The notes under the pieces were generated by a model. It was not told the origin of the DNA. It did no database searches and worked only from the letters and a program-made list of their open reading frames with translations. Below are positions 17,245-38,876 of a stretch of 39,035 bases of DNA, piece by piece. A program made the position numbers and the translations under genes. The stretch comes from Vallitaleaceae bacterium (GTDB lineage: Bacteria > Bacillota > Clostridia > Lachnospirales > Vallitaleaceae): positions 1-39,035 of the forward strand of contig JAOZKH010000012.1 of assembly GCA_029935405.1 (NCBI GenBank), in the 5' to 3' direction. Positions within the stretch are counted from its first letter, which is position 1; each line of letters begins with the position of its first letter.

Positions 17245-17256
17245 AAAATATAATGC

Positions 17257-18844: not shown

Positions 18845-18859
18845 AGATGAGGTGTAACT

Positions 18860-19174: not shown

Positions 19175-19188
19175 AAAAGGTATAGAGT

Positions 19189-20670: not shown

Positions 20671-20711
20671 TCAATTTCAAGTGATGATTTGATAGAAATA
20701 AGAGGAGAAAT

Positions 20712-21971: not shown

Positions 21972-21980
21972 GAAAATATA

Positions 21981-23009
21981 ATGTTTAATGAAAGTAAAAA
22001 AGCAATGACTGCTATTTCACAGTATTGTGGCAACCGTGTAGATTATGTGCAAGGTGGTGGCGGAAATACATCATATAAATTTAATGATAAATTGATGGCA
22101 ATAAAAGCATCTGGGTATACGTTGGCTGATGTTCAGCCTGAGCAAGGCTATGTTACGGTAGATTATAGCAAGATTTCAAGAAAATATGATGAAATAAGTA
22201 AAAAAATGGATATAGATGTTGAAGCAGAGACACTATTAATCAACCTTGATTGTGTGGAGCTTTTGCATGGTATGAAAGATTTAAGACCATCTGTTGAAGT
22301 TGGATTTCACTCGTACTTGCAAAAGGCTGTTATACATACTCATTCGGTTTATTCTAACTTGCTTTGTTGTTCTGATGAAGGACGAGACAATGCTAAATCG
22401 ATATTTGAAAATTCTAAATACGGATATATTTATATTCCGTTTATAAGTCCAGGTTATACTTTATCGATAAGAGTAAAAGATGAAGTAATAGCGTACAAAG
22501 CTGAAAATGGCAAGATGCCGGATTTAATATTTATGGAAAGCCACGGTATGATTGCATCAAATGATGACTATGAAACAGCGATTGAAATTCACGAAACAGC
22601 GAATCAAATGATGATTGATTATTTTAATTCTGTTGAGTTTCCAAAAGCAATAATCAAGAAAACTTCTAAAGGGTTTTCTAGTAAGACAGAAATGATTAAT
22701 AAATTCATTGTTGATTTTAGCGCTGATGAAAATTATTTTGATACAGTAAATATATACCCTGATCAAATAGTTTATCTTCAAAATAATTTAGGAAAAACTA
22801 TATTGATTGATAAAGATAATGCATCTATAGAGTATATTATGAGCGAGAAACAGGCTCAGACTCTTGAAGAAGTTCTATTAGGTGTTGTATATATTATTAC
22901 TGAGATTAAGAGAAATGAATTATCACTTAAACTTCTATGTAAAGAAGGTGAAGATTTCATTAGAAATTGGGAGAGTGAGAAGTACCGTGCATCACTTGTA
23001 AATGATTAA
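21981..23009 (+). CDS. Class II aldolase/adducin-family protein
   Basis: This 342-residue protein has a class II aldolase domain. VDYVQGGGGNTSYKF supplies the phosphate-binding GGN loop, KAVIHTHSVYSN the HxH zinc ligands, and MESHGMIASN the third ligand region. It resembles the N-terminal aldolase half of bifunctional rhamnulose-1-phosphate aldolase/dehydrogenase (RhaE/YuxG type) but lacks any dehydrogenase half. It is last in the rhamnose enzyme run, although a full RhaD is already encoded at the other end. It may act on the phosphorylated product of the isomerase-family protein upstream, or be a second rhamnulose-1-phosphate aldolase. Specificity unknown. Repeats and the riboswitch leader follow. 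Confidence 0.78.
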   Translation: MFNESKKAMTAISQYCGNRVDYVQGGGGNTSYKFNDKLMAIKASGYTLADVQPEQGYVTVDYSKISRKYDEISKKMDIDVEAETLLINLDCVELLHGMKDLRPSVEVGFHSYLQKAVIHTHSVYSNLLCCSDEGRDNAKSIFENSKYGYIYIPFISPGYTLSIRVKDEVIAYKAENGKMPDLIFMESHGMIASNDDYETAIEIHETANQMMIDYFNSVEFPKAIIKKTSKGFSSKTEMINKFIVDFSADENYFDTVNIYPDQIVYLQNNLGKTILIDKDNASIEYIMSEKQAQTLEEVLLGVVYIITEIKRNELSLKLLCKEGEDFIRNWESEKYRASLVND

Positions 23010-23313: not shown

Positions 23314-23362
23314 TTTATGCGTGTATTATTAGGCGTATAAGACCAAATGAGGAGGTTTTTTG

Positions 23363-25153
23363 ATGTACGGATATGTAGGAAAGATTTTAAGAGTAAATCT
23401 TACAGACAAGGTAACAACAGTAGAAGACTTAGATGAAAAGCTGGCAAGAAAATTTATTGGTGGTAGAGGACTTGCAACAAAGATGTTTGCTGATGAAGTA
23501 GATCCTAATATAAATCCTTTTGATGAAGCTAATAAGATGATTATTGCAACTGGTCCATTAACAGGAACTCCAACTCCAACAGGTGGCCGATACATGGTAG
23601 TAACTAAGTCGCCACTTACAGGAACTATTGCATCTTCAAACTCAGGTGGATATTGGGGACCTGAACTGAAATTCGCAGGATATGACATGATTATTCTTGA
23701 AGGTAAATCTAAAGAGCCTTGCTATCTTATGATAGAAGATGACAAAGTTGAATTTAGAGATGCATCACATGTTTGGGGCAAGGTTGTTTCAGAAACAACT
23801 AAACAATTAGAAACAGAAGCACCAGAAAAATCAAGGATACTTGCAATTGGACCTGCTGGAGAAAATCTTTCTAAGATGGCAGCTATCATGAACGATTATG
23901 ATAGAGCGGCAGGACGTTCAGGTGTTGGTGCTGTAATGGGTTCTAAAAACCTTAAAGCTATTGTTGTTAGAGGTTCAGGAAAAGTTGAAGTAGCTGATAA
24001 AGAGCAATTAAAAGCAGTAGTTCGAGATTGTAATAAGAAAATACGTGAAAATGGAGTTACAGGACAAGGTTTACCAGCATATGGTACAGCAGTTCTTGTT
24101 AATATTATTAATGAAAATGGTGTTTTCCCAACAAATAACTTCCAAGAAGCTCAGTTTGATAAAGCTGAAGATACTTCTGGAGAATTATTAGCTGAGAAGT
24201 ATTTAGTTCGTAAAGACCCATGTTACCGCTGTCCAATAGGATGTGGACGCCATTGTAAAGTTGGGGATATTGAAGGTGGTGGCCCTGAGTATGAAACAAT
24301 TTGGGCTTTTGGTGGAGACTGTGGAATTGATGACCTAGAAGAAATAATTAAAGCTAATTACTGGTGTAATGAAATGGGTATTGATACAATTAGTGTTGGT
24401 GCTACTATTGCATGTGGTATGGAATTATATCAAAAAGGATATATTAAAGATGCAGATCTTGATGGTGTGCCACTAGAGTTTGGAAATGCTAAAGCAATTG
24501 TTGAATGGACAAAACGTATTGGTATGCGTGAAGGTCTCGGAGATAAAATGAGTGAAGGCTCATATCGATTAGCTGATAGTTATGGTGTACCTGAATTATC
24601 AATGACAGTTAAAAAGCAAGAAATACCAGCTTATGATCCACGTGCGATTCAAGGTCAAGGATTACAATATGCAACTTCAAATCGTGGTGGATGTCATGTT
24701 CGTGGATACTTAATTTCTCCTGAAATTTTGGGTCTTCCTGAAAAACTTGATAGATTTTCACTTGAGGGAAAAGCTGCTTGGGTAAAAATATTTCAAGACT
24801 TTACAGCTTTTATAGATTCTTCAGGATTATGCCTATTTACTTCTTTTGCTATGGGCGCTCCTGATTATGCAGCTATGTATAATGCGGTAATTGGTGCTGA
24901 GTTTGATGCAAATGATGTACTTCATGCTGGTGATAGAATATGGAATATTGAAAGAATATTTAATCTAGCAGCAGGAGTAGATCCTTCGCAAGATACTCTT
25001 CCAAAAAGACTTCTTGAAGATCCTATTCCAAGTGGTCCTTCAAAAGGTAATGTAGCTAGACTTTCAGAACTTCTTCCTGAGTATTATGAACTTCGTAAGT
25101 GGTCTACTGATGGTATTCCTACTGATGAATGCAAGAAGGAACTTGATTTATAA
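23363..25153 (+). CDS. aor: Aldehyde ferredoxin oxidoreductase (tungsten enzyme)
   Basis: This enzyme of about 596 residues uses a tungsten bis-pterin cofactor and one 4Fe-4S cluster to oxidise aldehydes to acids with ferredoxin, or the reverse. The cluster ligands appear as CYRCPIGC (Cys287, 290, 294) and the distal Cys490 in SSGLCLF. The pterin-binding regions IGPAGENLSKMAAIMNDYDR and AAGRSGVGAVMGSKNLKAI are present. ATG at 23363 is preferred over TTG at 23360, with GGAGG 7 bases away. A cofactor riboswitch precedes it, and a radical SAM, MoaD-like and ThiF-like set follows. Physiological substrate is unknown; lactaldehyde from the neighbouring rhamnose pathway is a plausible guess. Confidence 0.95.
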   Translation: MYGYVGKILRVNLTDKVTTVEDLDEKLARKFIGGRGLATKMFADEVDPNINPFDEANKMIIATGPLTGTPTPTGGRYMVVTKSPLTGTIASSNSGGYWGPELKFAGYDMIILEGKSKEPCYLMIEDDKVEFRDASHVWGKVVSETTKQLETEAPEKSRILAIGPAGENLSKMAAIMNDYDRAAGRSGVGAVMGSKNLKAIVVRGSGKVEVADKEQLKAVVRDCNKKIRENGVTGQGLPAYGTAVLVNIINENGVFPTNNFQEAQFDKAEDTSGELLAEKYLVRKDPCYRCPIGCGRHCKVGDIEGGGPEYETIWAFGGDCGIDDLEEIIKANYWCNEMGIDTISVGATIACGMELYQKGYIKDADLDGVPLEFGNAKAIVEWTKRIGMREGLGDKMSEGSYRLADSYGVPELSMTVKKQEIPAYDPRAIQGQGLQYATSNRGGCHVRGYLISPEILGLPEKLDRFSLEGKAAWVKIFQDFTAFIDSSGLCLFTSFAMGAPDYAAMYNAVIGAEFDANDVLHAGDRIWNIERIFNLAAGVDPSQDTLPKRLLEDPIPSGPSKGNVARLSELLPEYYELRKWSTDGIPTDECKKELDL

Positions 25154-25165
25154 GATTTAAAAATG

Positions 25166-25198
25166 GGTCGTCATCAGTAGTGAAAACTGATGGCGACC
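25166..25198 (+). terminator. 12-bp hairpin after aor
   Basis: The arms 25166-25177 and 25187-25198 pair over 12 bp with one G-U around a 9-base loop. No T run follows. It may protect or partially end the aor message, making the downstream maturation genes less expressed. Confidence 0.5.
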
Positions 25199-25235
25199 AT
25201 TAAACATAAGATAATAAACTGAAATGGGTGAATAA

Positions 25236-26270
25236 ATGAAAAAAGTTTATTTTGAATTAACTAATCGATGTAACTTAAATTGTATTATGTGTTACAGGAA
25301 GTCATGGCATGAACAGGTAAGTGATATGGATGATGGTATACTTCGTAAGTGTGTTAGAGAAGTGAAGGGACTTGAGTCTGTAGAGGAAGTGGTTCTTGGA
25401 GGTATAGGTGAGCCATTGTATTCTAAGAATATTGAATGGGTTATTGAAGAACTAAGAGATAAAAGGTTGGTTATTACGACTAATGGAACCATTATGCCTG
25501 AAAAACTTATGGATCAATTTATTGAATGTGTTGACGAATTGGTCATATCTATTGATGGTATGAATGAGAATTTTGAATCAATTAGGCATTTTCCACTTGA
25601 AGAAATATTAAATAATATTAGTACATTAAATCAACATAAGAAAAAAAATAAGAGTAAAACGCCAAAAATTTCATTTCAAATGGTTATTACAAGTAAAAAT
25701 TATCTTGACATGACTAAGGTTGTTGAACTAGCAGATGAATATGATGTAGATAAGGTTATTTTTAGTAATATTGTTCCTGCTTCGTTAGAGGATGTAGACC
25801 TAGTTATGTATGAAATGTATTCGAAGAAAAAACTTGAAAAACATATGCAAAAAGCTATAGTAAAAGCTTTGGTCAAAAAGATAGAGTTAGTTATACCTGA
25901 GATAATGTTAAAAACGGAACGTCGTTGTAAATTTATTGATGACGACGCAACAATGATAACGGTCGATGGTCATGTTGTACCTTGTTATCGTTTAGCACAT
26001 GATGGTACTGAAGTTGTTTTTGGTAGAGAAAAAGAGCTAAAAGCTCATTATTTTGGGAATATTGCAGAGGATACTCTATTGGATATTTGGAATAAAGACG
26101 ATTATTACAATTATCGTATGACAGTATATAATAACCAATATCCTTCTTGTATGGATTGTGATCTGCTTGAGGGCTGCGATATGGCTAAGGTGGCAGATGT
26201 TGACTGTTTTGGAAATGTTCCATCTTGTGCTGATTGTCTATGGTCTAGAAGAATAGTTTATTGTGTATAG
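25236..26270 (+). CDS. Radical SAM/SPASM-type maturase of tungsten oxidoreductase
   Basis: This 344-residue radical SAM enzyme has the cluster motif CNLNCIMC (Cys12, 16, 19) and a GGIGEPLYSKNIEWVI segment for SAM binding. The C-terminal third holds about nine cysteines (CKF, PCYR, SCMDCDLLEGC, DCFGNVPSCADC, YC) typical of SPASM/Twitch auxiliary iron-sulfur clusters. Genes of this type lie next to aldehyde ferredoxin oxidoreductase genes in many anaerobes and are named tungsten cofactor oxidoreductase radical SAM maturases. The reaction is not known to me. It begins 82 bases after aor, behind a hairpin, and is followed closely by the MoaD-like gene. Confidence 0.82.
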   Translation: MKKVYFELTNRCNLNCIMCYRKSWHEQVSDMDDGILRKCVREVKGLESVEEVVLGGIGEPLYSKNIEWVIEELRDKRLVITTNGTIMPEKLMDQFIECVDELVISIDGMNENFESIRHFPLEEILNNISTLNQHKKKNKSKTPKISFQMVITSKNYLDMTKVVELADEYDVDKVIFSNIVPASLEDVDLVMYEMYSKKKLEKHMQKAIVKALVKKIELVIPEIMLKTERRCKFIDDDATMITVDGHVVPCYRLAHDGTEVVFGREKELKAHYFGNIAEDTLLDIWNKDDYYNYRMTVYNNQYPSCMDCDLLEGCDMAKVADVDCFGNVPSCADCLWSRRIVYCV

Positions 26271-26285
26271 TCTGGAGGTAAGAAA

Positions 26286-26510
26286 TTGGAAGTAAAAGTC
26301 AAATTATTTGCAACATTAAGAGACGGAAGAGGAAAGATAGTATATATACCGTTTTTTGATGGAATTACACCAGCCTATATTCTTAAACATTTGAATATAA
26401 GACATGAAGATGTTGCTATATTGTTGGTAAATGGACGTGACGGAGAATTTGAACAAAAGTTATTAGAAGAAGATTATTTATCCATTTTTCCACCAGTAGG
26501 AGGCGGCTGA
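26286..26510 (+). CDS. MoaD/ThiS-family sulfur carrier protein
   Basis: This 74-residue ubiquitin-fold protein ends in DYLSIFPPVGGG. The FPPVxGG ending is that of MoaD, whose terminal glycine is adenylated and thiocarboxylated to bring sulfur to the pterin dithiolene. Translation starts at TTG, 7 bases after GGAGG. It lies between the radical SAM maturase and the ThiF-like activating enzyme, its presumed partner. A role in making or modifying the tungstopterin of the upstream oxidoreductase is likely, in place of or besides a housekeeping MoaD. Confidence 0.88.
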   Translation: MEVKVKLFATLRDGRGKIVYIPFFDGITPAYILKHLNIRHEDVAILLVNGRDGEFEQKLLEEDYLSIFPPVGGG

Positions 26511-26511
26511 T

Positions 26512-27189
26512 ATGAAACGATATTCACGTAATCATAGCTGTATTACTGAAATTGACCAACAATTACTCGCAAAGTCCAAAGTGTGTGTATTAGGTGCTGG
26601 TGGCCTTGGTGGATATATTGTGGAAATGTTAGGGAGAATTGGAGTTTGTGATATTACTGTTGTTGACGGTGATGTCTTTGATGTGAGTAACCTTAATAGA
26701 CAATTGATTTCTAACAATCTAAATATAGGTATGAGTAAAGTGCTTTGTACCTATAATCATATGCGTGAAGTTAATGATGAAGTTAAAATTAATCCAGTAA
26801 ATAAATTTATAAATAAAGACAATTCAGATAAAATTATCAAGGGCCATGACGTAGTTGTTGATGCACTTGATAATAATAATATAAGAAAAATAGTTTTTGA
26901 TTCATGTAAAAAGTTAAATATTCCTTTTGTATACGGTGCGATAGCAGGTTGGTATGGTCAGGTGACAACAATATATCCTAGCGATCAAACCCTTGATATA
27001 CTTCTTAAAAAGGCATCAAATAAAGGTAAAGAAAAGCTACTTGGAAATCCTTCATTTACTCCAGCTTTAGTAGCTTCAATTGAAGTTTCTGAAGTTATAA
27101 AGATATTAACACATAAAGGGGAATTACTTCGAAACGGGTTCTTGTATATAGATTTATTAGCTAATGAATATGAGTTTAACAAATTTTGA
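26512..27189 (+). CDS. ThiF/MoeB/HesA-family adenylyltransferase
   Basis: This 225-residue E1-like enzyme has the nucleotide-binding loop VCVLGAGGLGGYIVEMLGRIG near residue 25. It also has VVDGDVFDVSNLNRQL with the catalytic Arg, and DVVVDALDNNNIRK with the conserved Asp. It should adenylate the C-terminal glycine of the MoaD-like protein encoded directly upstream, one base apart. It is shorter than MoeB (about 249). It has no cysteine after about residue 132, so it lacks both the CxxC zinc site and the sulfur-transfer Cys of many relatives. MoeB likewise only adenylates. Sulfur would have to come from another protein. Confidence 0.85.
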   Translation: MKRYSRNHSCITEIDQQLLAKSKVCVLGAGGLGGYIVEMLGRIGVCDITVVDGDVFDVSNLNRQLISNNLNIGMSKVLCTYNHMREVNDEVKINPVNKFINKDNSDKIIKGHDVVVDALDNNNIRKIVFDSCKKLNIPFVYGAIAGWYGQVTTIYPSDQTLDILLKKASNKGKEKLLGNPSFTPALVASIEVSEVIKILTHKGELLRNGFLYIDLLANEYEFNKF

Positions 27190-27243: not shown

Positions 27244-29406
27244 TTGAAAAACATTAAAGAACCAACGTCTATGTTACAACTATTGATTATGTTACTTCTA
27301 GGATTACCTAAGATGATATTTTATAGCATTAAGAGTCGTCTCAAGAAAATGCTTATTATTATTCCAATTGTTATTATCTTTAATACTATTATTTTAGTTG
27401 GTCCAAATGAAGGCTTTGCAAGAAGTTTTAATTTGATTGTTGAGAATATTTTATTAGTAAGACAAAAATATTTATCGGGAATTTTCTTTTGGCTTGTTTT
27501 TCCTGCCGTCTTATCTGGATTTTTAGCATCTAGAAAGGCTAATCAACTAGATGAATTAAAAACAAATATTAAATTATATTTTGGAAAACTTAAGGATAGT
27601 ACTGTGTCTGTACTTAGCTATCGTGGTCAGAATAAATATTTGGCTTTTTTATTAGGATTAGCAGTTGCATTTTTAATTGGTGCCCTTACAACCAACCCTA
27701 TTGCACTGACATTTTTTGTAATATTACTATTAATGTCTTATAGTCAAAAAACGCAAAGTCTTATAAAACTTATGGTGTCACTTAGTTTAAGAGACTTTTC
27801 AAAAGTATTATCAATTAAAAACTTTTCTAACTCTGAAAATGTATTATTTGCATATGCAGGGTTAATTACAGGGAGTATCTTTAATATTATAATAACATTG
27901 ATACCATATGTTCTGATTAGAACTCTTGGATTATTTAACTCATTTGCAATTTTGCGAGGGTTTATATGGTTATTATTTATTATTACAGTAATTATGATTT
28001 TTGTTGATAAAGGTAAAAAAATAGTACCACCAAAAACCGCACTTTTTGCAATAGCTATAATTACATTTGCAAGAATATTTGTTATGACAGTATTTGCTGA
28101 TGATGGCGGTTGGTTAGAAGCAGGTGGAACACTTAGTGGTTGGGTTGCTAGCGAGGGAGCTGTAACAGCAGTTTCACATTCAATTATTACAGCAATTATT
28201 GGAGTAGGTTCAGTTGTTGGAGCGGATATATTAGTAACAAATCCAAATATAATGTTTCCTCCAGATTTCATTATTCCCCCTGAAGCTTGGCCTGGAGATT
28301 ATGAGGAATATGAAGGCTATGAAGGTGGAGAAGGCTACGAAGGCTATGAAGGTGGAGAAGGCTACGAGGAATATGAAGGTGAAGAAAGCTACGAAGATTC
28401 AGAGGATGTAGTAGTCGATGACGAAACAGATGTCGAAAATGAAACCGAAGCTGATGATGAAACTAAAGCTGAAGAAGAGAGAAAGGCTGAAGAAGAAAAG
28501 CAAAAGGCTGAAGAAGAAAAGCAAAAGGCCGAGGAAGAAAAACAAAAGGCCGAGGAAGAAAAGCAAAAGGCCGAGGAAGAAAAGCAAAAGGCTGAAGAAG
28601 AAAAGCGAAAAGCCGAGGAAGAAAAGCAAAAGGCTGAAGAAGAAAAGCGAAAAGCTGAAGAAGAAAAACGTATAGCCGAAGAAAAAAAACTTGCAGAGCA
28701 AGAGAAAAAGCGAAAAGAATATGAGGAATGGAAGAAAAAGAGAACTGCTGAGTTGAAAGCTGAACAGAAAAAGCATATGGAAGAAGCGGCGAAACATAAT
28801 AAAGATGCTAATTTTTGGGGCTGGATGGAATGGGGCGCTAGTGCTGTGAAACATACAGCTGATATGGCTGTTGATGGATTATCTAAAGTGACAGGACCTG
28901 TTGGGAAAGGAATAAAAGCAGGTTATGATGTTTTGTCAAAAACAGGAGAAAAGGTCGGCACAGCCTTTGCAGATGGAAAATCTATGACTCAAGGATTACA
29001 AGACGGTCTTGTTGAAGGAAGTATTGACGCAGCAGGAAACTTTATTGAATCAGATAAAATAAAAGCAGCATATAATGTAACTTCAGAAGTGACTAAAGAA
29101 GTGTATAATAAAGGACTCTCTTTAGAAAGCCTTGGAAAAGGCACTGGCAAGGGTATTGTGAAAGCGACAATAGATTATGGTGCAAGTAAAATTCCAGGAG
29201 TTGATGGACCTGATCAATTAAAGTTTGGTAAAGGTTACGGTAATATGAACATAGGTGGTATTACTAAGAAGGTGTTTAGCGATAATAAACATGTGGTAGT
29301 AACAAATCTTCAATCTAGGGTTACAAATGCAACTATTGACGCAGTTAAGGGGAAAGTCGGAGCTGAGACAACTAATCTATTAAACGGAGCAGCGTTTGGT
29401 AAGTAA
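27244..29406 (+). CDS. Multi-membrane protein with DDGGW motif, acidic repeats and coiled coil
   Basis: I do not recognise this 720-residue protein. Residues 1-335 hold about seven hydrophobic segments. The motif DDGGWLEAGGTLSGW starts at Asp286 at the end of a membrane segment. A tyrosine/glutamate/glycine-rich stretch follows (about 353-387; a 27-base unit is repeated at 28315-28368). Next comes an acidic linker and a charged coiled coil of nine KAEEEK(Q/R) heptads (about 414-476). A Gly/Lys-rich helical C-terminal region closes the protein. It resembles TolA only in having membrane segments plus a coiled coil. Translation begins at TTG, 5 bases after GGAGGAGG. A second protein with the same motif is encoded at 34163. 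The motif-bearing end is followed by a hydrophobic segment. Function unknown. Confidence 0.7.
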   Translation: MKNIKEPTSMLQLLIMLLLGLPKMIFYSIKSRLKKMLIIIPIVIIFNTIILVGPNEGFARSFNLIVENILLVRQKYLSGIFFWLVFPAVLSGFLASRKANQLDELKTNIKLYFGKLKDSTVSVLSYRGQNKYLAFLLGLAVAFLIGALTTNPIALTFFVILLLMSYSQKTQSLIKLMVSLSLRDFSKVLSIKNFSNSENVLFAYAGLITGSIFNIIITLIPYVLIRTLGLFNSFAILRGFIWLLFIITVIMIFVDKGKKIVPPKTALFAIAIITFARIFVMTVFADDGGWLEAGGTLSGWVASEGAVTAVSHSIITAIIGVGSVVGADILVTNPNIMFPPDFIIPPEAWPGDYEEYEGYEGGEGYEGYEGGEGYEEYEGEESYEDSEDVVVDDETDVENETEADDETKAEEERKAEEEKQKAEEEKQKAEEEKQKAEEEKQKAEEEKQKAEEEKRKAEEEKQKAEEEKRKAEEEKRIAEEKKLAEQEKKRKEYEEWKKKRTAELKAEQKKHMEEAAKHNKDANFWGWMEWGASAVKHTADMAVDGLSKVTGPVGKGIKAGYDVLSKTGEKVGTAFADGKSMTQGLQDGLVEGSIDAAGNFIESDKIKAAYNVTSEVTKEVYNKGLSLESLGKGTGKGIVKATIDYGASKIPGVDGPDQLKFGKGYGNMNIGGITKKVFSDNKHVVVTNLQSRVTNATIDAVKGKVGAETTNLLNGAAFGK
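28315..28368 (+). repeat. Tandem 27-base repeat coding for GYEGGEGYE
   Basis: Two 27-base units, 28315-28341 and 28342-28368, differ only in the last base. They lie inside the tyrosine/glutamate/glycine-rich stretch of the 27244 gene. Confidence 0.85.
28483..28671 (+). repeat. Nine tandem 21-base repeats coding for KAEEEK(Q/R)
   Basis: Nine consecutive 21-base units encode KAEEEKQ or KAEEEKR, with mostly synonymous changes (GCT/GCC, GAA/GAG). This forms the coiled coil of the 27244 gene. Such exact repeats invite copy-number change by slippage or recombination. It is in frame, so changes alter rod length in steps of about 1 nm. Confidence 0.9.
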
Positions 29407-29417
29407 GGAGGAAAAAT

Positions 29418-30563
29418 ATGGCTAAACAATTAGTAATACATGGAAGTGTTCTTGGCGAATTAGGGAATAGATTTAGTAATAAGACTGATATATCGCCGTT
29501 ACATCAACAAGAGAAGTATAAAGATATAGGACAAAATGAATTGATTAAATCAAATATTATTAAAACGAATAAAGAACTTGTAGATTCGGTTTTTGAGAGT
29601 ATGATAACAAAACTTGCTAGGCCAAGATTTTTTGGAAGATATAGATATACTCAGGGCGTTACTATTAAAGAAACAACAGTTTTTTATGATGATGACAATA
29701 AATTGATATGTGGTATGACAACAGGTGAAGAAGAAATAGTTACATTAGATCCTGAATTTAACATTGGAGATGATATAGATCAGATTATTCAATTAATTGG
29801 TCAATCGGTTATTCAATACAATGAATTTGATTATGAACTTAATATTATGGAAGCGTTATCGTTAGGTGCTATGATCGATTTGTATAGAAAAGAAATGTAT
29901 AGTAGCTTAGGAAAAGGTGAAAACTTTGATCCGATTCCTTCACAGCCAGGTGAAATATATGAAGAAATTAATAATGAAAAGGCACAGTGGATTATGTGGC
30001 TGACTTTTATTATTAAACAATCGCTAGCTACTGAGTTGACATGTGATATAAACGATGTTGATAAATCGCTTAAGAGTTTAGTTGACAAAAATCTTCTTGA
30101 AAAAGATGGGACAGGCTATAAGATTACGAAGGAAGTAGAAGGTGTTGCAATTCGAATGCATCTAACCGATAATATTATCGTAGCAAACTGTGGGTTCGCT
30201 AGTTCAAGTAAGGTCAATGTAATGAGCTTTATTAGTGCTCAATATGGAGTAAAAGATATTATTATGATTGATGCAAGTGGAGAAATGATAGAATTATCTT
30301 GTGTTTCAGCTGGACAAATTGTTAAGATGTTAATGGACTTCATGTATAATCCAAAAGGATTTTTTATTGAAGAATTCAAAGAATTTATTGTGAAGGAAGT
30401 AAGTGAAATCCAGACTGAAACAGCTAAAGCTGAAATAGTAGTAGAGCCTGTTGTTAAAACTAAGGATAAGACAATCATTGAAACTAAATTTTGTGTACAC
30501 TGTGGACAAAAAATTCCAAGGTCATCAAAATTCTGTCCTTTATGTGGAGGAAAAACGCAATAA
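29418..30563 (+). CDS. Unknown protein with C-terminal zinc ribbon
   Basis: I do not recognise the main part of this 381-residue soluble protein. The C terminus CVHCGQKIPRSSKFCPLCG is a zinc ribbon (CxxC...CxxC) that is probably attached by a flexible linker (about 325-355). A segment around residues 212-240 (DVDKSLKSLVDKNLLEKDGTG) looks like a winged helix. It is followed by a strand-rich region with IRMHLTDNIIVANCGF. No signal peptide or membrane segment is evident. It is 11 bases after the DDGGW-protein gene and 15 before the binding lipoprotein, so probably cotranscribed. It might be a cytoplasmic partner of the membrane proteins. Confidence 0.6.
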   Translation: MAKQLVIHGSVLGELGNRFSNKTDISPLHQQEKYKDIGQNELIKSNIIKTNKELVDSVFESMITKLARPRFFGRYRYTQGVTIKETTVFYDDDNKLICGMTTGEEEIVTLDPEFNIGDDIDQIIQLIGQSVIQYNEFDYELNIMEALSLGAMIDLYRKEMYSSLGKGENFDPIPSQPGEIYEEINNEKAQWIMWLTFIIKQSLATELTCDINDVDKSLKSLVDKNLLEKDGTGYKITKEVEGVAIRMHLTDNIIVANCGFASSSKVNVMSFISAQYGVKDIIMIDASGEMIELSCVSAGQIVKMLMDFMYNPKGFFIEEFKEFIVKEVSEIQTETAKAEIVVEPVVKTKDKTIIETKFCVHCGQKIPRSSKFCPLCGGKTQ

Positions 30564-30578
30564 GAATGGGGATTAATT

Positions 30579-31607
30579 ATGACTAAAATATTTGTTGTAA
30601 TAGGTTTTGTTATAATGAGTATAATATTTGTTTCTTGTAATAATGAGGATAATGAACTAATTGTTTATACTTCAGTGGATCGAATATATTCAGAGAAAAT
30701 ATTTGATATGTTTACAGAAAAAACAGGAATTAAAGTGAAAGCAGTTTATGATGTAGAGGCAACAAAAACCACAGGGCTGGTGAATCGCATTATTAGCGAA
30801 AAAGATAATCCAGTCGCAGATGTATTCTGGAACGGTGAAATTATTTATACGATGAAGTTAAAGGAAAAAGGATTACTTGAGGCATATGAATCACCGAACA
30901 ATGTAACGCTACCTGATAAATTTATTGATGATGACGGTATGTGGACCGCTTTTGGTGGTAGGGGAAGAATTATTATTGTTAATTTAGATAAAGTAAATAG
31001 TAAAGATATTAATCCTTCTATAACTGCTTTTGCTAAACAGTCTGAAATATATAATATTGGAATAGCTAAACCAATGTTTGGAACAACAGCCACCTATGTT
31101 GCAAGCTTGTACTCCAAATTTGGAGAAGAAAAAGGTGTTAAACTGTTTGAAGATATTAAGAATAGTTCAGTTTATATTGTAGACGGCAATGGAGCAGTTA
31201 GAGATATGGTTGTAGCTGGACAGTTAGATTTTGGATTGACGGACACTGATGATGCACTTATGGCAGTAGAAAAAGGTGCAAATGTTGATTTGATATTTCC
31301 AGATCAAGGAATAGATGAAGTGGGAACACTTATTATTCCAAATAGTGTTGCAGTAATAAAAGAATGTAAACATGTTGATCAAGCCCATAGATTTATAGAC
31401 TTTCTTCTAGAAAAAGAAACTATGGAAACAATGATTGATATTGGTTGGTTTCAATTAGCGCAAGGAAAAGAATTAATGATTGATGAGAAGTTAAAGCCAT
31501 ATTTACCCACAGATGGACAACTGAAGTTAATGGATGTTACATTTGAAGAAATAGGTTTTTACTTAGGTAAGTCGTCTTTAGATATGACAGAAATATTCTT
31601 AGATTAG
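30579..31607 (+). CDS. Iron-type ABC substrate-binding lipoprotein (family 1)
   Basis: This 342-residue lipoprotein has signal peptide MTKIFVVIGFVIMSIIFVSC with the lipid-anchor Cys at residue 20. The body matches FbpA-like binding proteins for ferric iron and similar ligands: ELIVYTSVDRIYSEKIFDMF, VFWNGEIIYTMKLKEKGLLE, DGMWTAFGGRGRIIIVNLDK and TDTDDALMAVEKGANVDLIFPDQG. It precedes a permease of the matching type, but no ATPase gene is nearby. The ligand (ferric iron, another metal complex or a small anion) is not resolved. The protein may act as a receptor for signalling rather than only for uptake. Confidence 0.82.
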   Translation: MTKIFVVIGFVIMSIIFVSCNNEDNELIVYTSVDRIYSEKIFDMFTEKTGIKVKAVYDVEATKTTGLVNRIISEKDNPVADVFWNGEIIYTMKLKEKGLLEAYESPNNVTLPDKFIDDDGMWTAFGGRGRIIIVNLDKVNSKDINPSITAFAKQSEIYNIGIAKPMFGTTATYVASLYSKFGEEKGVKLFEDIKNSSVYIVDGNGAVRDMVVAGQLDFGLTDTDDALMAVEKGANVDLIFPDQGIDEVGTLIIPNSVAVIKECKHVDQAHRFIDFLLEKETMETMIDIGWFQLAQGKELMIDEKLKPYLPTDGQLKLMDVTFEEIGFYLGKSSLDMTEIFLD

Positions 31608-31660
31608 TAGGTAATAACCTGATAAATAAATTAGACAAATACATCACGGGAGATCGTAAA

Positions 31661-34159
31661 ATGAAAAGAACAAAATATAAGATGTATGTGTTATTACTCC
31701 TTATCATATTACCATATTTAGCAATTATACTAACAATAATGGAGGAAAATCCAGTTTTTTCTCCTCTTTTTTCTGTGCGCAGACTTGGAATTATGGGTAA
31801 AACATTAGGGTTTTCCATAGTTGTTGGTATTATTGGGGTTATAGTTTCGTGGATTATAGGCTATTATTTGAATCGAATATTTAAGGGAAAATTATGGATA
31901 AGTGCAATATTGATTGCACTTGCTGTTATGCCTTCTTTTATGCAGGCATACTTATGGATGAATACCATGTATGTTGTATTTGATAGAGTAGCTTTATCTG
32001 GATTTTGGATAAGCGCTTTTGTTCAACTTATCTATTTGTTACCGATTGGAATATTAATGTGGTACCATGTATTTGCTATGTTTGATGATGAATATTTTTA
32101 TGAAGCATATATTAATACAGCAATAAAAACTGGATATACTAGAGTAGTGTATGAACTGAGTAAAGGTCCTGGGACAATACTTCTAATATTATATATTCTT
32201 TTATCAATGACAGATTATACAATACCTTCAGTTTTTGCGTTTAATACCTATCCAATAGAAATAATGACAGTTTTTGCTGGCACACTTAATATATATGAAC
32301 CGGTATTTGTTAGTATTCCTATGATACTTATTACTACTATTCTTGTAAGCATAATAATCAAGAAAAATAATTCTAAGTTAGAGGGAACAAGTGGTGTAAG
32401 TAGTATAATAGTAAAAACCTGTAGTAAAGACTATATTATACTGTTAATTATAATTGTATTGATGTTTATTCCATTTATTCTGATGATTGTAGACAGCCTT
32501 ACATCAACTAATATAGTTGAGTTAATAAGTAATTATAGTGAGGATTATATTTTTACGTTAGTTAGCTCAATAACTGGAGCAGTTGTTGTGTTATTGATAA
32601 GTTACAATTTGAATCTATATATACTTGATAATAGAAAACTTAAAAGAACTATGATACTTGTTATGATAGTACTTCTTGGAATTCCTGGAACTGTAACGGG
32701 AATTACAATTAATAATTTTTACAGTGAATTAAGCAATTTATCGCCTATACTTACAGAATTAAGGAATAGTTTTCTACCTTTGTCCCATGTAAATGTGCTA
32801 CGTTTTCTGCCAATTGGATATTTTTTAATGGCCTTTGGTTTTGAATATATGCCAATTGAATATGTTGAACAGGCAAAACTTGATACAAATAATTTGTTAG
32901 TAATGTTAAAACACGGTGTATTTAATAGGCTTAAGCCCTACTTAATAACAACATTTTTTATTGTAGTTATATTAAGTTTTAGTGAACTAAGTGGAGCGAT
33001 TATGGTTGTGCCTCCAGGAAGGTCAACAATAACGGTTACTATTTATAATTATCTTCATTATGGTAGTACAGATGTTGTTGCTACACTATGTATGACATTT
33101 ATGCTGTTAATTGTTTTGGCAACATTAATAACCTATAAATTAATAAAAAAAAAATCAAAAAAAAGAATAATAAATATACTAATTGTTGGAATAATAGTCA
33201 CTTCATTTAGTGGTTGCAGACAAATCAATGATACTACAAATGTAATACAATCATTAGATTATACTTTAGACGTTATGACAATGGAAGTATATAATGGCAA
33301 AATATATTTAGGAACAACAGATGGTCTTTATTATATTGATGAAGAAAGATTAATAAAGGTACCACTTGTTGTTACTACAACATTAATACACGATCTATAT
33401 GTAAATCATAATCAAGAACTTTTAGTTGGCAGTATGGAAGGATTGATTGTTATTGACGGTGATAATCAGATATATTATGGAAAAGACAGTTTTCTCCCTG
33501 ATATTAGAATTAACGTTATTGCTGAAGATACTAGCGGCAATATCTATATTGGTACCTGGAATGGACTTGTAGTTGTGGATCAAGAGTTTGAAGTGATCGA
33601 AAAAGATATAAAATTATTATCATCAATGGTTAATATAATTGATTTTGATAGTTTAGATAATATTATAATTGGTTCTTACAATGTTAGAGATGGTGGCTTA
33701 ACGATTTTATACGAGAATTTGCCTGATGAATATATTGAAAAAAGCTACGATGGTAGTAGCCAATTAACAACGATTAATTTTACTGGAATTGTAGTGAAAG
33801 AAGATTTGTTTTTAGTTGGTGGAGGTATGTATGAAAAAGGTGGATTTGATAAATTCGAGTATAAAGAAGGAACATATTTTTTAACAAAATCTTATAAACA
33901 AGAAGATGGTTTAGCAGGACCAAAAATCAGAAGTATGTATTCCCTAGGAAATACTTTGATAGTAGGATCTGAATACGATGGTTTATCAATTATGAAATTT
34001 GATGATGAATTTAGTGAAGTGATAGATTCAAGAATTTTGACTTCAAAAGACGGACTAGCTCACAACGAAATTAAATGTATAATAGAATATGAAGGATGGT
34101 TATATTTTGGAACAAAGGCAGGTATATCAAAAATAATTATTGAAAATGAATGGAGGTAA
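31661..34159 (+). CDS. FbpB-type ABC permease fused to a lipobox and beta-propeller domain
   Basis: This protein of 832 residues has an N-terminal part (1-500) that is a double-length iron-type permease with about twelve membrane segments. It has loops resembling the EAA coupling motif (EAYINTAIKTGYTRVVYEL and VEQAKLDTNNLLVMLKHG). After a Lys-rich stretch coded by A10 (33145-33154) and A8 (33157-33164) comes a hydrophobic segment. It ends in FSGC, a lipobox with Cys519. Residues 520-832 repeat LGTTDGLYYID, VGSMEGLIVID and IGTWNGLVVVD, which are blades of the two-component-regulator propeller type. The C-terminal GL..NEIK.I motif is shared with the protein at 35612. A fusion, frameshift or slippage explains this; see findings. 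Confidence 0.75.
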   Translation: MKRTKYKMYVLLLLIILPYLAIILTIMEENPVFSPLFSVRRLGIMGKTLGFSIVVGIIGVIVSWIIGYYLNRIFKGKLWISAILIALAVMPSFMQAYLWMNTMYVVFDRVALSGFWISAFVQLIYLLPIGILMWYHVFAMFDDEYFYEAYINTAIKTGYTRVVYELSKGPGTILLILYILLSMTDYTIPSVFAFNTYPIEIMTVFAGTLNIYEPVFVSIPMILITTILVSIIIKKNNSKLEGTSGVSSIIVKTCSKDYIILLIIIVLMFIPFILMIVDSLTSTNIVELISNYSEDYIFTLVSSITGAVVVLLISYNLNLYILDNRKLKRTMILVMIVLLGIPGTVTGITINNFYSELSNLSPILTELRNSFLPLSHVNVLRFLPIGYFLMAFGFEYMPIEYVEQAKLDTNNLLVMLKHGVFNRLKPYLITTFFIVVILSFSELSGAIMVVPPGRSTITVTIYNYLHYGSTDVVATLCMTFMLLIVLATLITYKLIKKKSKKRIINILIVGIIVTSFSGCRQINDTTNVIQSLDYTLDVMTMEVYNGKIYLGTTDGLYYIDEERLIKVPLVVTTTLIHDLYVNHNQELLVGSMEGLIVIDGDNQIYYGKDSFLPDIRINVIAEDTSGNIYIGTWNGLVVVDQEFEVIEKDIKLLSSMVNIIDFDSLDNIIIGSYNVRDGGLTILYENLPDEYIEKSYDGSSQLTTINFTGIVVKEDLFLVGGGMYEKGGFDKFEYKEGTYFLTKSYKQEDGLAGPKIRSMYSLGNTLIVGSEYDGLSIMKFDDEFSEVIDSRILTSKDGLAHNEIKCIIEYEGWLYFGTKAGISKIIIENEWR

Positions 34160-34162
34160 CAA

Positions 34163-35611
34163 ATGGATACAAATCAAAACGTGAGATATTATATTGATTA
34201 TGATGATTTAGCAACGGTTAAAGAATTTCCTAAGACAAGAGGAGCATTTATTATTAGTATTTTAAAAAATGGTAGCAAAAATTTTCGTCAAGGATTTCCA
34301 AAAACATTGATATTACCTATGGTTACAGGGTTGATATTTTTTATTCTTTCGGTAATTTATGTAGCAGGATTTGTAGATACTATGTATGTAACAATACATA
34401 TGTTTGATGGGCCTATTACGGAGTTTGTACCATATTATGCTCCGGGATTAGTTGACACTAGAAGCTATATAAAAGGTTTTCAACATGATAATCTAATAGG
34501 AAATAACTTATATTTGGTTATGCCTTTGTATTTCTTTATAATGTTATTAGCAAAATCTTTGATAAAAACAATATTTAGTAAAGGTGCTATAAAACAATCA
34601 TTTAGCAATATTAAAAACACGAAACTTTATACTAAAAGATATTTGGAAATGGAAAGTAAAGGGATAAGTAGAATTATACTTGGAATAATAACGGCTATAG
34701 CGCTGGGATTTATTATTAAAAATCCACTAACCTTTATACCGATTGCAATTGTATTATATCTTAGTTATATTAAAACCACTGATTCTAGTTTAATTATGTT
34801 TATCGTTATGTTTAAGGTAAGTGGTCAAATAAGAAAAAAACATAAATACGTTAGTATTGGAAAAGTCGCACTTTTTGTATTAGGTTTAGCAATTGGATTT
34901 TTAATATATTTTGTAATTGCTATGGTCATGTGGTATGTCTTTAAATATAACCTTATTGCTAGAATTATATTTACAAGTGCTTTTATAGGATTATTTATAT
35001 TTTTCTATATTCAGCAATATTTTTCGAAATCTAAAAAGACTGTTGATGCAGGATTATTTGTATGTATGATGGTTCTTATTGGTTCTCTTGGAAGTTATGT
35101 AGTATTAGGTGATGACGGTGGGTGGGCTGAATCAGGTGGAAACTTATTTGCTTGGCTTGGAAATGCAGGTTCTAAGATTATCGCAGCCCTTGGCTTTGTT
35201 GGCAGTATAGGTGCAGCCCTTGGAATGACAGCAGACTTGGTTTTAGGTGGGGTATTTTCAGCAATAGGTATCGATGCTCCGCTTAAAATGGGGTCAATAC
35301 TAGCAGGATTTGGACAGCCGCGAGGTTCAGATGCAGCAAATCTTACCTTTGCAAATGCAGCGATAAAAGCAGCGTTTGGAAGTGTAGGCCCATTAGGAGA
35401 AATGCTTACAGGTATGGTGGGAGATATTAATAGTGGATTATCAGGACAAACAGGTAGTGCATCAGGAGATGCAGCTAATACAGGAGATGCGGGTAATTCA
35501 GGAGACTCTGGAGGAAATACAGGGACAGGAAATGGAGGAGGAGAAGATCCTTTTGAACCAAGAGATCCCTTTAAACCAAAAGACCCATTTGAAGATGAGG
35601 ATATTAATTAA
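34163..35611 (+). CDS. Second multi-membrane DDGGW-motif protein
   Basis: I do not recognise this 482-residue protein. It shares DDGGWAESGGNLFAW (Asp317) and general layout with the 27244 protein: an N-terminal cytoplasmic stretch, several membrane segments, the motif just after a hydrophobic segment, another hydrophobic region (ALGFVGSIGAALGMTADLVLGG), then a low-complexity tail. The tail is Gly/Asp/Ser-rich (430-460) and ends in the short repeats DPFEPRDPFKPKDPFED. It starts 3 bases after the permease-propeller gene behind GGAGG and abuts the next gene. The two DDGGW proteins probably form a membrane complex. Function unknown. Confidence 0.65.
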   Translation: MDTNQNVRYYIDYDDLATVKEFPKTRGAFIISILKNGSKNFRQGFPKTLILPMVTGLIFFILSVIYVAGFVDTMYVTIHMFDGPITEFVPYYAPGLVDTRSYIKGFQHDNLIGNNLYLVMPLYFFIMLLAKSLIKTIFSKGAIKQSFSNIKNTKLYTKRYLEMESKGISRIILGIITAIALGFIIKNPLTFIPIAIVLYLSYIKTTDSSLIMFIVMFKVSGQIRKKHKYVSIGKVALFVLGLAIGFLIYFVIAMVMWYVFKYNLIARIIFTSAFIGLFIFFYIQQYFSKSKKTVDAGLFVCMMVLIGSLGSYVVLGDDGGWAESGGNLFAWLGNAGSKIIAALGFVGSIGAALGMTADLVLGGVFSAIGIDAPLKMGSILAGFGQPRGSDAANLTFANAAIKAAFGSVGPLGEMLTGMVGDINSGLSGQTGSASGDAANTGDAGNSGDSGGNTGTGNGGGEDPFEPRDPFKPKDPFEDEDIN

Positions 35612-36703
35612 ATGAGGGGTAAACTATTACGTGTTATGAGTGTACTTATCATGATTAGTATTGTTTTTGTTATTAGTTTTATTATTGTGCAGAATATTTT
35701 AAATAAACAAAAAGAAATAAAAGAAAAAGAAGTTATAGAAGGCATAGAAATATATTTGATGGATGAAGAAATATCAGCTTTAATAATAGATGGAAATACA
35801 ATTATTGTCGGTGGAAAAAACGGCGTATACAGATTTGACACGAAATCAGAAACAATTGTAGAAACGATAACTGATGAGTTAAGCTTAATATATACAGCAG
35901 ATATGGTTATGACAAAAGATAGAGTTTTGTGGATTGGTCATGATAATGGTTTGTCACTATATTATGAGAATAATGATGAAGAGAATAAATGGAAGCATTT
36001 TATTAGTCCGGATATTCCAAAAGGTAGATGCAATACCCTTAAGATTATTGATGATAAGGTTTATGCAGGTTTTCAAGAAGGCGTAGCAATATTTAGACTT
36101 AAAACAGACTGGGATATTATGAAGTTGATAACAATAGATGATGGTTTGATTGAGCCTGTTGTGCAAGATATTGAATTTAACAACAGTGGAATATGGTATG
36201 GATCCTATTATTGTAATAAAATTGGTGGTATTAGTTTAGCAAAAGATAATTCATGGGAATATCTTTCTCTTGAAGACGGATTACCTCATAAGTATGTTAC
36301 ATCAATGCTGCCTGTGATATACGATGATAAGGAATATATATTGGTTGGCACAGGGCATTTAGAAAGTGGAGGGTTAGCAGTTGTTGAAGTAACAATAGAA
36401 GGGTTAAATGTTGTAGCAACTCATGATATACAGTCAAACCTACCAGGAGAAAAAGTTAGATTTTTATATCAATCTAAGGAGAATGTTTTTATTACAACAG
36501 AGTCTGATGGAATACTGATTACTGATTTATCTAAGATTATTAAAGGTGAATTACTTGATGGTATTTATCTTAATACAAATCATGGACTTTCAAGTGATGA
36601 AATAAAAGTAATAGTTGAAAACAATGATAGTTACTGGCTTGGAGGGAAAGTAGGATTAACAAAAATACCTAAGGAAGTCATATTGTTAATAAATGCCACA
36701 TAG
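35612..36703 (+). CDS. Membrane-anchored beta-propeller protein
   Basis: This 363-residue protein has an N-terminal hydrophobic anchor (about residues 6-28) and an extracytoplasmic propeller. Blade-like repeats include IIVGGKNGVYRFD, LWIGHDNGLSLYYE, VYAGFQEGVAIFR and YWLGGKVGLTKIP. These resemble the Reg_prop repeats that form extracellular sensors of hybrid two-component kinases. The C-terminal GL.SDEIKVIVENN.SYW.GGK.GLTKI aligns with the end of the fused permease-propeller (31661). The ATG follows directly after the stop of the previous gene. No lipobox is seen, so it differs in anchoring from the fused copy. It precedes a two-component system and is probably a sensor component. Confidence 0.72.
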   Translation: MRGKLLRVMSVLIMISIVFVISFIIVQNILNKQKEIKEKEVIEGIEIYLMDEEISALIIDGNTIIVGGKNGVYRFDTKSETIVETITDELSLIYTADMVMTKDRVLWIGHDNGLSLYYENNDEENKWKHFISPDIPKGRCNTLKIIDDKVYAGFQEGVAIFRLKTDWDIMKLITIDDGLIEPVVQDIEFNNSGIWYGSYYCNKIGGISLAKDNSWEYLSLEDGLPHKYVTSMLPVIYDDKEYILVGTGHLESGGLAVVEVTIEGLNVVATHDIQSNLPGEKVRFLYQSKENVFITTESDGILITDLSKIIKGELLDGIYLNTNHGLSSDEIKVIVENNDSYWLGGKVGLTKIPKEVILLINAT

Positions 36704-36795
36704 CTGTCACAGAACAATTATAGAATTAGTTAAGGTGTCATAAGTAAGTTTGAGATCTTAACCATAATTAAATAAAAATATAGGAGTGGTTTATT

Positions 36796-37470
36796 GTGTA
36801 TGATTTGAATATTTTATTAGTAGAAGATGATATAAGGATTAGAGAGATCATAAGAACATATTTAAAAAGAGAAAACTACAAATTATATGAAGCAGGAACC
36901 GGTGAAAAAGCCTTTGAATTACTTGAAGAAAAGGAATTTCAATTGGTTGTTCTTGATGTTATGCTTCCAGATACAGATGGGTGGTCAATTCTTAGAAAAA
37001 TACGAGCTAAATCCCAATTACCAGTTATCATGTTAACGGCGAGAGCAGAAGAGACAGATAAACTTTTTGGTTTTGACCTTGGAGCGGATGATTATATGAC
37101 AAAACCTTTTAGTGCTAAAGAGTTATTAGCTAGGATAAAAGCTCTACTGAAACGAAATCAAATTGCAACAGCTAATGAATTGGTGCAGATTGGAAATATT
37201 AAGATTAATACATCGTATCATCAAGTATATATTAATGAACAGGTTATTGAATTAACACCACTTGAATACAGTTTATTATCCTATTTAGTTGATAATAAAA
37301 ATCTTGCCATGTCAAGGACACAGATTTTAGATGGTGTATGGGGATATGACTATTTTGGTGATGAAAGAACTGTAGATACACATATTAAACGGTTACGCAA
37401 AAAACTGCTGTCAGAAGGGGACTATATCAAGACTATTAGAGGTGTTGGGTATAGAATGGTGATTAAGTAA
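36796..37470 (+). CDS. OmpR/PhoB-type response regulator
   Basis: This 224-residue regulator has a receiver domain with acidic residues Asp11-Asp12, phosphorylation site Asp54 (LVVLDVMLPD) and Lys103 (TKPF). The winged-helix DNA-binding domain includes LTPLEYSLLSYLV and ERTVDTHIKRLRKKL, ending in IKTIRGVGYRM. It starts at GTG behind TAGGAG. The gap of 92 bases from the propeller gene has GTTAAG/CTTAAC arms and could hold a promoter or weak attenuator. The 3' end overlaps the kinase start by one base. Target promoters probably include the 27244-36703 operon, by inference. Confidence 0.93.
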   Translation: MYDLNILLVEDDIRIREIIRTYLKRENYKLYEAGTGEKAFELLEEKEFQLVVLDVMLPDTDGWSILRKIRAKSQLPVIMLTARAEETDKLFGFDLGADDYMTKPFSAKELLARIKALLKRNQIATANELVQIGNIKINTSYHQVYINEQVIELTPLEYSLLSYLVDNKNLAMSRTQILDGVWGYDYFGDERTVDTHIKRLRKKLLSEGDYIKTIRGVGYRMVIK

Positions 37471-38876
37471 TGCGAGCATCTATTTCAAATAGAATAACAC
37501 TATATTTGGTGGTTTTCTCAATTATAATTATTGGGATTATTGGTATTGCAGGCAAGTTTTTTCTGCCAAATTATTATACTAATTATCAATTGGATATTAT
37601 TAACTCTAAAACTTCGGAAATAGTAGAACTCTATAACGTTAACGAACCAGATGCTGCACTTTCTATAATTGAAGAATTACGACAATTAGTAGGTGGAGAG
37701 ATCTATTTACAAAGCGAAAATGGGCAAATCAATGGGTTTGTGACAGGTAGAGGCAACAATAGCAGTATCATGGGTAAAAACCAAGGTCATATACTTAAAA
37801 ATAGTGAAAGTTTTATCCCTAACGGTGATATTACTTATTATAATTACGAGAATAAAATTGGTCTTGAAGTATATACACTAGGTATTAATGTTAATGATGA
37901 ATACATTGTTTATGAAGTTACTATACAGTCGCTAAATAAAGCAGTGGATGTAGTGCTTAGTTTTTTATGGATACTTTTATTAGTTGTTTTAGCTATTGCA
38001 GTTGGTGTTGCTATGTTTTTGTCACGTACAATATCAAAACCTATTAAAGATTTAAACAATCTTGCCAAAAATATGATGAATAAGAAGGTTAAAGCAGTTA
38101 TGGTTACTAATAATGAAGATGAAATTGGCAAATTAAATCATTCCCTTAATGAATTATATGAGGAATTATTATCTAGTATTTATCAGTTAGAATCAGAACT
38201 TAATAAAGAGAGAAATGCAGAAAACCTTAAGAAACGTTTTTTAGCTCAGGCAACACATGAGTTAAAAACGCCCATTGCTGTTATTGGAGGATATGCTGAA
38301 ATATTATACGATGGCATGTATAAGGATGAAGATGACAGAGATAGATATCTTAAAAATATTTATGAAGAGACACAGGCAATATCACATTTGATTAAGGATG
38401 TGCTTGATTACACGAAGATGGAAACAGGTAATTATGAGCTACTCATAGAAAAAGTTTCGGCTAAAAACTATTTTGAAGGGATAGTTAATAGATTCGAAGA
38501 CTATGTGAAGGAATATGGATTGAATTTTCTTAAAAGCATTGAACTAGATAATCAGTTTGAATTAAATATCGATAAAACTAGAATTGAACAGGTTATAAGG
38601 AATTTACTAAGCAATAGCGTGGAACATGGTGTTACTAAAGTGATTGTTAATGTTGCAAGATTGCAAGATAAAGTTAAGATTCAAATAAGTAATGATGGAC
38701 CGTTGATTGAAGAAGAAGATTTACCTTATATCTTTGACAGTTTTTATAAAAAGAAAGGTAAACAGTCAGGAACAGGATTAGGACTTGCAGTTGTGAAAGA
38801 AATTGTTTTACTACACGGTGGAGATTACCGCGTTGAAAATAGTGAAGAGGGTGTTATTTTTACGATTATAGTGTAA
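37470..38876 (+). CDS. Sensor histidine kinase
   Basis: This 468-residue membrane kinase has one hydrophobic segment near the N terminus (about 10-30), an extracytoplasmic domain to about 160, and a second segment (about 162-188). A HAMP linker follows (SRTISKPIKDLNNLAKNM), then a HisKA domain with His263 in ATHELKTPIAV, and an HATPase domain with NLLSNSVEHG and GTGLGLAVVKEIV. It is the partner of the preceding response regulator, sharing one base. The sensor part has no propeller, although two propeller proteins are encoded just upstream. Confidence 0.93.
   Translation: MRASISNRITLYLVVFSIIIIGIIGIAGKFFLPNYYTNYQLDIINSKTSEIVELYNVNEPDAALSIIEELRQLVGGEIYLQSENGQINGFVTGRGNNSSIMGKNQGHILKNSESFIPNGDITYYNYENKIGLEVYTLGINVNDEYIVYEVTIQSLNKAVDVVLSFLWILLLVVLAIAVGVAMFLSRTISKPIKDLNNLAKNMMNKKVKAVMVTNNEDEIGKLNHSLNELYEELLSSIYQLESELNKERNAENLKKRFLAQATHELKTPIAVIGGYAEILYDGMYKDEDDRDRYLKNIYEETQAISHLIKDVLDYTKMETGNYELLIEKVSAKNYFEGIVNRFEDYVKEYGLNFLKSIELDNQFELNIDKTRIEQVIRNLLSNSVEHGVTKVIVNVARLQDKVKIQISNDGPLIEEEDLPYIFDSFYKKKGKQSGTGLGLAVVKEIVLLHGGDYRVENSEEGVIFTIIV

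Follow-up and report, generated by a model that had tools for sequence, protein, structure and literature searches.

A recurrent gene cassette combining an ABC importer-type transporter with a beta-propeller, DDGG membrane proteins and an EspG-fold protein in a Vallitaleaceae bacterium

Genes of the six-gene run

The window analysed here, the entire 39,035 bp contig JAOZKH010000012.1 (G000:C13) of a Vallitaleaceae bacterium (assembly GCA_029935405.1), carries a run of six tightly packed genes (27244-36703) encoding membrane proteins, a lipoprotein, an ATP-binding cassette (ABC) permease and beta-propellers, followed after 92 bp by a two-component pair. An earlier note on this DNA had proposed that these genes form an undescribed envelope sensing/transport system. 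All eight genes that it listed were found on one strand (+) between 27244 and 38876, and its coordinates and gaps (0-53 bp) were confirmed, the spacings within the run being 11, 15, 53, 3 and 0 bp. The two proteins with a DDGGW motif, the permease-propeller fusion, the anchored propeller and the two-component pair were likewise all found as it had described them.

The first gene (27244..29406) starts with TTG behind AAAGGAGGAGG and encodes DDGG1, which consists of a multi-helix membrane part with a VFA-DDGGW loop (ADDGGWL motif at 28096..28116, from the alignment of N-terminal modules), another hydrophobic helix, an E/K-rich coiled coil and a helical C-terminal region. A shorter paralogue without the coiled coil, DDGG2 (34163..35611; 24% identity, E-value 6e-10), carries the motif as VLG-DDGGW. 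Neither protein matched a Pfam family, and the characterised family of unrelated role that the earlier note had allowed for was not found there. The family holding these proteins is hereafter termed LARGE, the DDGG motif not being present in every member. Between the two DDGG genes lie those for a protein with a C-terminal zinc ribbon (29418..30563, Pfam), for a solute-binding protein (SBP; 30579..31607) and for the fusion (31661..34159). The SBP is a lipoprotein with an FVSC lipobox and matches SBP_bac_6 (PF13343, E-value 3.9e-14); it resembles AfuA/FbpA/PhnS2-type proteins. In the earlier designation as an iron-type binding lipoprotein, ‘iron-type’ is a superfamily label only.

The fusion joins, in a single frame, a two-half ABC permease (31661..33205, residues 1-515), with a BPD_transp_1 (PF00528) match in its second half and degenerate coupling (EAA) loops, to a Reg_prop-type propeller (33143..34159). 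The junction retains a lipoprotein-type signal, KKKSKKRIINILIVGIIVTSFSGC, and no ATG, GTG or TTG from which a separate propeller could start was found there. Runs of A10 and A8 at the junction (window 33120-33170) are possibly a slippage site, perhaps also giving an unfused permease, or reflect an assembly indel. The last gene of the run (35612..36703) encodes a second, membrane-anchored extracytoplasmic propeller with a weak Reg_prop match, paralogous to that of the fusion (E-value 2e-9). The window copy is atypical in having DDGG proteins and propellers in duplicate and in lacking an ATPase gene.

Recurrence of the cassette across phyla

When an alignment of the SBP was used as query, with one genome retained per species, 54 loci were retrieved from Clostridia, Syntrophomonas, Chloroflexota, Proteobacteria, Acidobacteria, Planctomycetota, Sumerlaeota, Fimbriimonadia and methanogenic archaea. 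SBP orthologues shared 35-49% identity across phyla, and their alignment, bacterial and archaeal members included, contained 35 invariant columns; beside the weakest matches (L096-L099) none of the remaining cassette genes were present. Syntenic clusters within the same class (Clostridia) were retrieved when the zinc-ribbon protein and the permease-propeller fusion served as queries. They overturned the impression of a one-genome oddity given by DDGG2, which used alone as query had found no homologues in 146 relatives or in the genome contigs.

Adjacencies were counted with hidden Markov models (HMMs) built from the first loci read. Across 60 loci, direct same-strand neighbours were SBP and permease (40), permease and ATPase (25), ATPase and propeller (19), propeller and LARGE (14), LARGE and the zinc-ribbon protein or its relatives, termed EspG-like for reasons given below (14), EspG-like and SBP (8) and permease and propeller (5), in each case in the order named. 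The arrangement exceeds what chance would give. The usual order in relatives was SBP, permease, ABC ATPase, propeller, LARGE (with DDGG in many) and zinc-ribbon protein, and DDGG1 homologues adjoined an EspG-like gene and the transporter in many loci. The complete genome G232 has SBP, permease, propeller, ABC ATPase, DDGG protein and zinc-ribbon protein. Another complete genome, G467, follows the order of the window (DDGG protein, zinc-ribbon protein, SBP, permease, propeller), but with permease and propeller unfused, and the ATPase is absent; its propeller, a lipoprotein, has a start that overlaps the stop of the permease gene. In G157 the set is spread over several contigs, with additional DDGG and propeller copies.

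Five genomes with an SBP orthologue, chosen by the SBP alone and kept out of all model building (G017, G010, G680, G603 and G899), served as an independent set. On whole genomes the SBP profile separated orthologues (440-527 bits) from paralogues (~150 bits). Permease, ATPase and propeller genes lay beside the SBP in all five, and in three (G017, G010 and G680, the first two from the same family as the window organism) all six genes were contiguous as SBP, permease, ATPase, propeller, LARGE and EspG-like. In G603, LARGE and propeller genes stood back to back with the SBP operon, the EspG-like gene not among them; in G899 an open reading frame (ORF) lying upstream of the SBP accompanied the transporter and propeller genes and was called EspG-like from visual inspection, not from an HMM match. 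The ABC system alone was present in four genomes with SBP paralogues (G049, G020, G015 and G021), none of which had propeller, LARGE or EspG-like genes. The three other genomes of the window's genus lacked an SBP orthologue, and the cassette is hence patchy. The conserved co-occurrence proposed as a check in the earlier note was thereby observed, both in the 60 loci from many phyla and in the five unused genomes, as regards transporter and propeller.

The ABC ATPase, overlooked in the earlier list of parts, belongs to the cassette in most relatives, including G010 and G017, and is of the MalK type with a TOBE domain. No cognate ATPase gene was found in the cassettes of the window or of G467. 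An LP element of the coupling loops, kept in most ATPase-containing relatives, is lost from the permeases of the window, G467 and L062; it is intact in L054 and L083, though an ATPase gene is not nearby. Elsewhere in the window genome there are five MalK-like ATPases, four of them with other transporters and one standing alone (L150:7392-8504). This MalK/MsmX-like protein is 46% identical to the ATPase of G232 and is a suggestive partner for the window permease, shared ATPases having been documented so far for CUT1 sugar importers only (PMC7658222). As the window contig ends 159 bp past the kinase gene, an ATPase gene could also lie beyond it.

Partner proteins and neighbouring genes

The zinc-ribbon assignment of the earlier note was upheld by Pfam, but the ribbon (residues 358-377) is a small tail on a protein whose main body (residues 1-320) has an EspG fold that the note had missed. 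An AlphaFold2 model based on a 20-sequence alignment reached a predicted local distance difference test score (pLDDT) of 83.5 and a predicted template modelling score (pTM) of 0.75. The top 18 Foldseek matches of this model in the PDB were all mycobacterial EspG chaperones (E-values 5e-9 to 3e-6, probability 1.00), the next match having an E-value of 0.02. VIA-align superposed 14 EspG entries over ~230 residues with Z scores of 10.3-11.8, unrelated rows matching just a winged-helix half. The Pfam EspG model gave no match to the window protein at E<=0.05, nor was it among the 25 families listed for 20 members. The modelled structure nonetheless identifies the protein as EspG-like by fold. Neither a signal peptide nor a transmembrane (TM) segment was found, hence its location is predicted to be cytosolic. 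Zinc ribbons occur in about half of its relatives, and FHA or GYF_2 domains rarely, a domain variety that fits an adaptor role. EspG-like proteins without the ribbon are encoded at L046:8299-9255 and L047:5022-5978 inside a type IV pilus/type II secretion-like operon of GspE-, PilT-, PilC- and pilin-like genes, directly after a receiver-domain protein. In the flanks of L043, L048, L049 and L050, further small proteins that are conserved, with zinc ribbons or in the membrane (clusters c6, c7, c10, c12 and c13), recur near the EspG-like/LARGE pair.

EspG-like proteins are known from type VII secretion systems (T7SS) of the a, b, c, h and i types, where they occur with an EssC ATPase (PMC11217815). 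No WXG100 protein was found in any of four cassette genomes (G000, G232, G467 and G157), and EssC/EccC gave partial matches below the cut-off only, in ORFs of ~810-890 codons as expected of FtsK/SpoIIIE, T7SS subtypes with divergent ATPases not having been searched with models of their own. T7SS membership was ruled out for these four genomes on both counts, and the cassette is therefore not a recognised type VII system.

Within LARGE, the DDGG residues and a later glycine were invariant in 12 aligned N-terminal modules. The motif follows a hydrophobic helix, often as V-x-A-DDGG, and precedes another, weakly hydrophobic helix. In the homologues of L049 and L050 an N-terminal signal-peptide-like hydrophobic segment is followed by an outer domain, one TM segment resembling the second helix and then the coiled coil; from this we infer that the coiled coil and C-terminus of LARGE are cytosolic, on the same side as the EspG-like protein. 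Some DDGG proteins (L119:3991-5784 and 6482-8197, L054:4887-5999) end in a HExxH ... ERDAD metallopeptidase-like domain with a weak DUF6782 match and are accompanied by a small zinc-ribbon protein, possibly a variable-tip arrangement. At L048:8058-9491 a LARGE relative beginning MKIRSDFVTNSSSTSF follows a radical SAM/SPASM-like protein (7116-8048), and its leader-like start suggests a shared N-terminal tag. Outside Clostridia (L059, L081, L104 and L088), LARGE N-termini comprise a short helical part and a ‘GxWWQxdPxtGxWxxWdG’ module that is possibly WW/GYF-like.

The propellers carry the signature GEKVRS...GSEYDG...NEVK, absent from two other propeller proteins examined (L038 and L039). In the acidobacterial locus L084 a zinc ribbon, a TM segment, a propeller and an SBP form one polypeptide. 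Since the propeller is fused to the permease in the window and to the SBP in L084, it is predicted to sit on the SBP side of the membrane and is tied to the transporter, not to a kinase. R283, E297 and E330 did not vary among 16 aligned propellers, perhaps marking a binding site.

Downstream of the run lie genes for an OmpR/PhoB-type response regulator (36796..37470) and a HisKA histidine kinase with HAMP and an ordinary periplasmic domain (37470..38876). In blastp searches of the predicted genes of related loci with both proteins, a homologous pair was found in L062 only (37% and 31% identity, which is ordinary for these families), where it directly precedes a DDGG gene. In the window the pair adjoins the cassette and may regulate it, and is not one of its conserved components. 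Immediately before the cassette (23360-27189) lies a small unit of a tungsten-type aldehyde (ferredoxin) oxidoreductase, a TIGR04317 radical SAM maturase and a ThiF/MoeB-like protein. A link to tungsten was dropped, as these genes adjoined the cassette in none of the relatives read, and they are treated as chance neighbours. Genes for rhamnose uptake and use occupy 11454-23009. Anti-phage models of PADLOC matched the coiled coil alone (JetC, E-value 0.0025), giving no support to a defence system, and a promoter scan returned no more sites than shuffled sequences and was left unused.

A proposed transporter complex and its alternatives

We assign about an even chance to the following reading. 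The six genes would represent a conserved envelope cassette in a form particular to this lineage, and at its core would be a type I ABC importer, or a receptor derived from one, joined by a propeller on the outside and by a pair of adaptors, one in the membrane and one in the cytosol. The SBP lipoprotein, the two-half permease and, in most relatives, the ABC ATPase have the make-up of a transporter. The Reg_prop-type propeller gene travels with it, at times fused, so the propeller probably works alongside the SBP at the outer face. The propeller gene adjoins that for LARGE, in which the invariant DDGG loop is frequent, and the LARGE gene in turn adjoins that for the EspG-fold protein. In the mechanism that we propose, the DDGG loop of LARGE would face outside and its coiled-coil/helical C-terminus inside, where the EspG-like protein would bind it, as EspG binds the helical tips of PPE proteins. 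The propeller would collect a conserved ligand and hand it to the SBP, or report the state of the SBP and transporter to LARGE, whilst the LARGE/EspG-like pair would control uptake or signal occupancy to the cytosol. For the window copy, either a shared ATPase may drive the permease in trans, or the permease may now serve mainly as a receptor.

Several observations weigh against this reading. The SBP, permease, ATPase and propeller genes occur without visible LARGE or EspG-like genes in L064, L068, L070 and L089; the EspG-like/LARGE pair occurs without a visible transporter in L048, L049 and L050, and an EspG-like gene alone lies beside type IV pilus genes in L046 and L047, so that the pair may have a role of its own. 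The zinc ligands of AztD, discussed below, have no counterpart in the propeller alignment, in which neither a histidine column (best 10/16) nor a cysteine column (best 7/16) is conserved. The AlphaFold2 model of LARGE was poor (pLDDT 63.6, pTM 0.43), hence its topology rests on hydropathy and homologues. Ligand, transport and physical contacts in the proposed mechanism are putative.

Of the alternatives, a type VII-like export or effector system, with LARGE as a substrate or effector of variable C-terminus, the EspG-like protein as its dedicated chaperone and the transporter as a neighbour, seems unlikely. It would account for the EspG fold, for the helical C-termini of LARGE (one with a weak LXG match, E-value 0.007) and for the HExxH peptidase-like domain ending two C37 LARGE copies of G157 and one of L054, and EspG-like proteins do belong to the five T7SS types named above. 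The protein shares with mycobacterial EspG and with TscG, TshG and EsaE of other T7SS (PMC11217815) a whole-domain fold of ~230 residues (Z 10-12) and a gene beside that of a helix-rich protein, but it is 7-10% identical to them, has a zinc-ribbon tail, is encoded with an ABC importer and also occurs in archaea. Moreover, the four host genomes lack WXG100 and an EssC match above the cut-off, LARGE has many TM helices, PADLOC found nothing beyond its coiled coil, and transporter and propeller co-occur too frequently for bystanders. A transporter that in this lineage no longer pumps and has become a receptor, the state of its SBP, permease and propeller being read by the DDGG proteins, is similarly improbable: the ATPase genes missing from the window and G467 cassettes and the lost LP elements speak for it, and the intact loops of L054 and L083, the stand-alone ATPase and the nearby contig end speak against it.

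The proposal of the earlier note that the propellers are detached sensor parts signalling through the adjacent plain kinase is quite unlikely to be correct. The pair does lie close downstream, and one precedes the DDGG gene of L062, but the predicted genes of the other related loci searched yielded no such homologue, the kinase carries HAMP and a periplasmic domain of its own, and the propellers track the transporter and not kinases across the 60 loci. Like the hybrid sensor kinases of the hybrid two-component system type, they bear Reg_prop-type repeats on the outward face of the membrane; unlike these, they have no kinase in the chain, belonging instead to a permease chain and a stand-alone anchored protein, are apparently tied to SBP and permease, and carry a signature of their own. 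The other option in that note, propellers that serve or read out a transport complex, is favoured by the recurrent ATPase-propeller adjacency and by the fusions to permease (window) and SBP (L084). Least probable of all is that this is a plain importer of iron or phosphonate whose neighbours are there by accident. The cassette shares with FbpABC, AfuABC and PhnSTUV the PF13343 SBP, a BPD_transp_1 permease with both halves in one chain and, in relatives, the MalK-type TOBE ATPase, but it has three extra conserved partners, which recur in the same order across phyla, and no ATPase gene in the window; its SBP forms a well-separated orthologue group, and the control genomes of the same superfamily had no extra genes.

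Returning to the importer-based cassette, its closest parallel is AztABCD, in which AztD, an extracytoplasmic beta-propeller encoded in an ABC operon with the importer's SBP, acts on that SBP by handing it zinc (PMC6689063). The likeness is one of operon role. AztD binds zinc by conserved residues, whereas the cassette propeller has no conserved histidine or cysteine; the SBPs belong to different clusters, and AztABCD has no LARGE or EspG-like partners. In the open-access library searched, which does not cover subscription papers, no paper describing the combination was found, consistent with the earlier note's suggestion of an undescribed system. New here are how widely the cassette occurs, the EspG fold, and the fusions that join the propeller to SBP or permease.

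More tentatively, and with rather less than an even chance, the parts may form one transmembrane complex common to bacteria and archaea, a hitherto undescribed kind of envelope machine in which an ABC importer and a propeller outside are joined with the DDGG protein as membrane scaffold and the EspG-fold protein as cytosolic adaptor. If so, the EspG fold would have a role in transport-coupled signalling, away from type VII secretion, and the complex would have become an ATPase-less receptor in some Clostridia. The cassette would gather unannotated genes from many phyla into a single testable system, give names to two families for which Pfam and NCBIfam have no model (LARGE/DDGG and EspG-like), and provide, after AztD, a second case of a propeller working with the binding protein of an importer. 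It would also link the EspG fold to an ABC importer instead of to type VII secretion.

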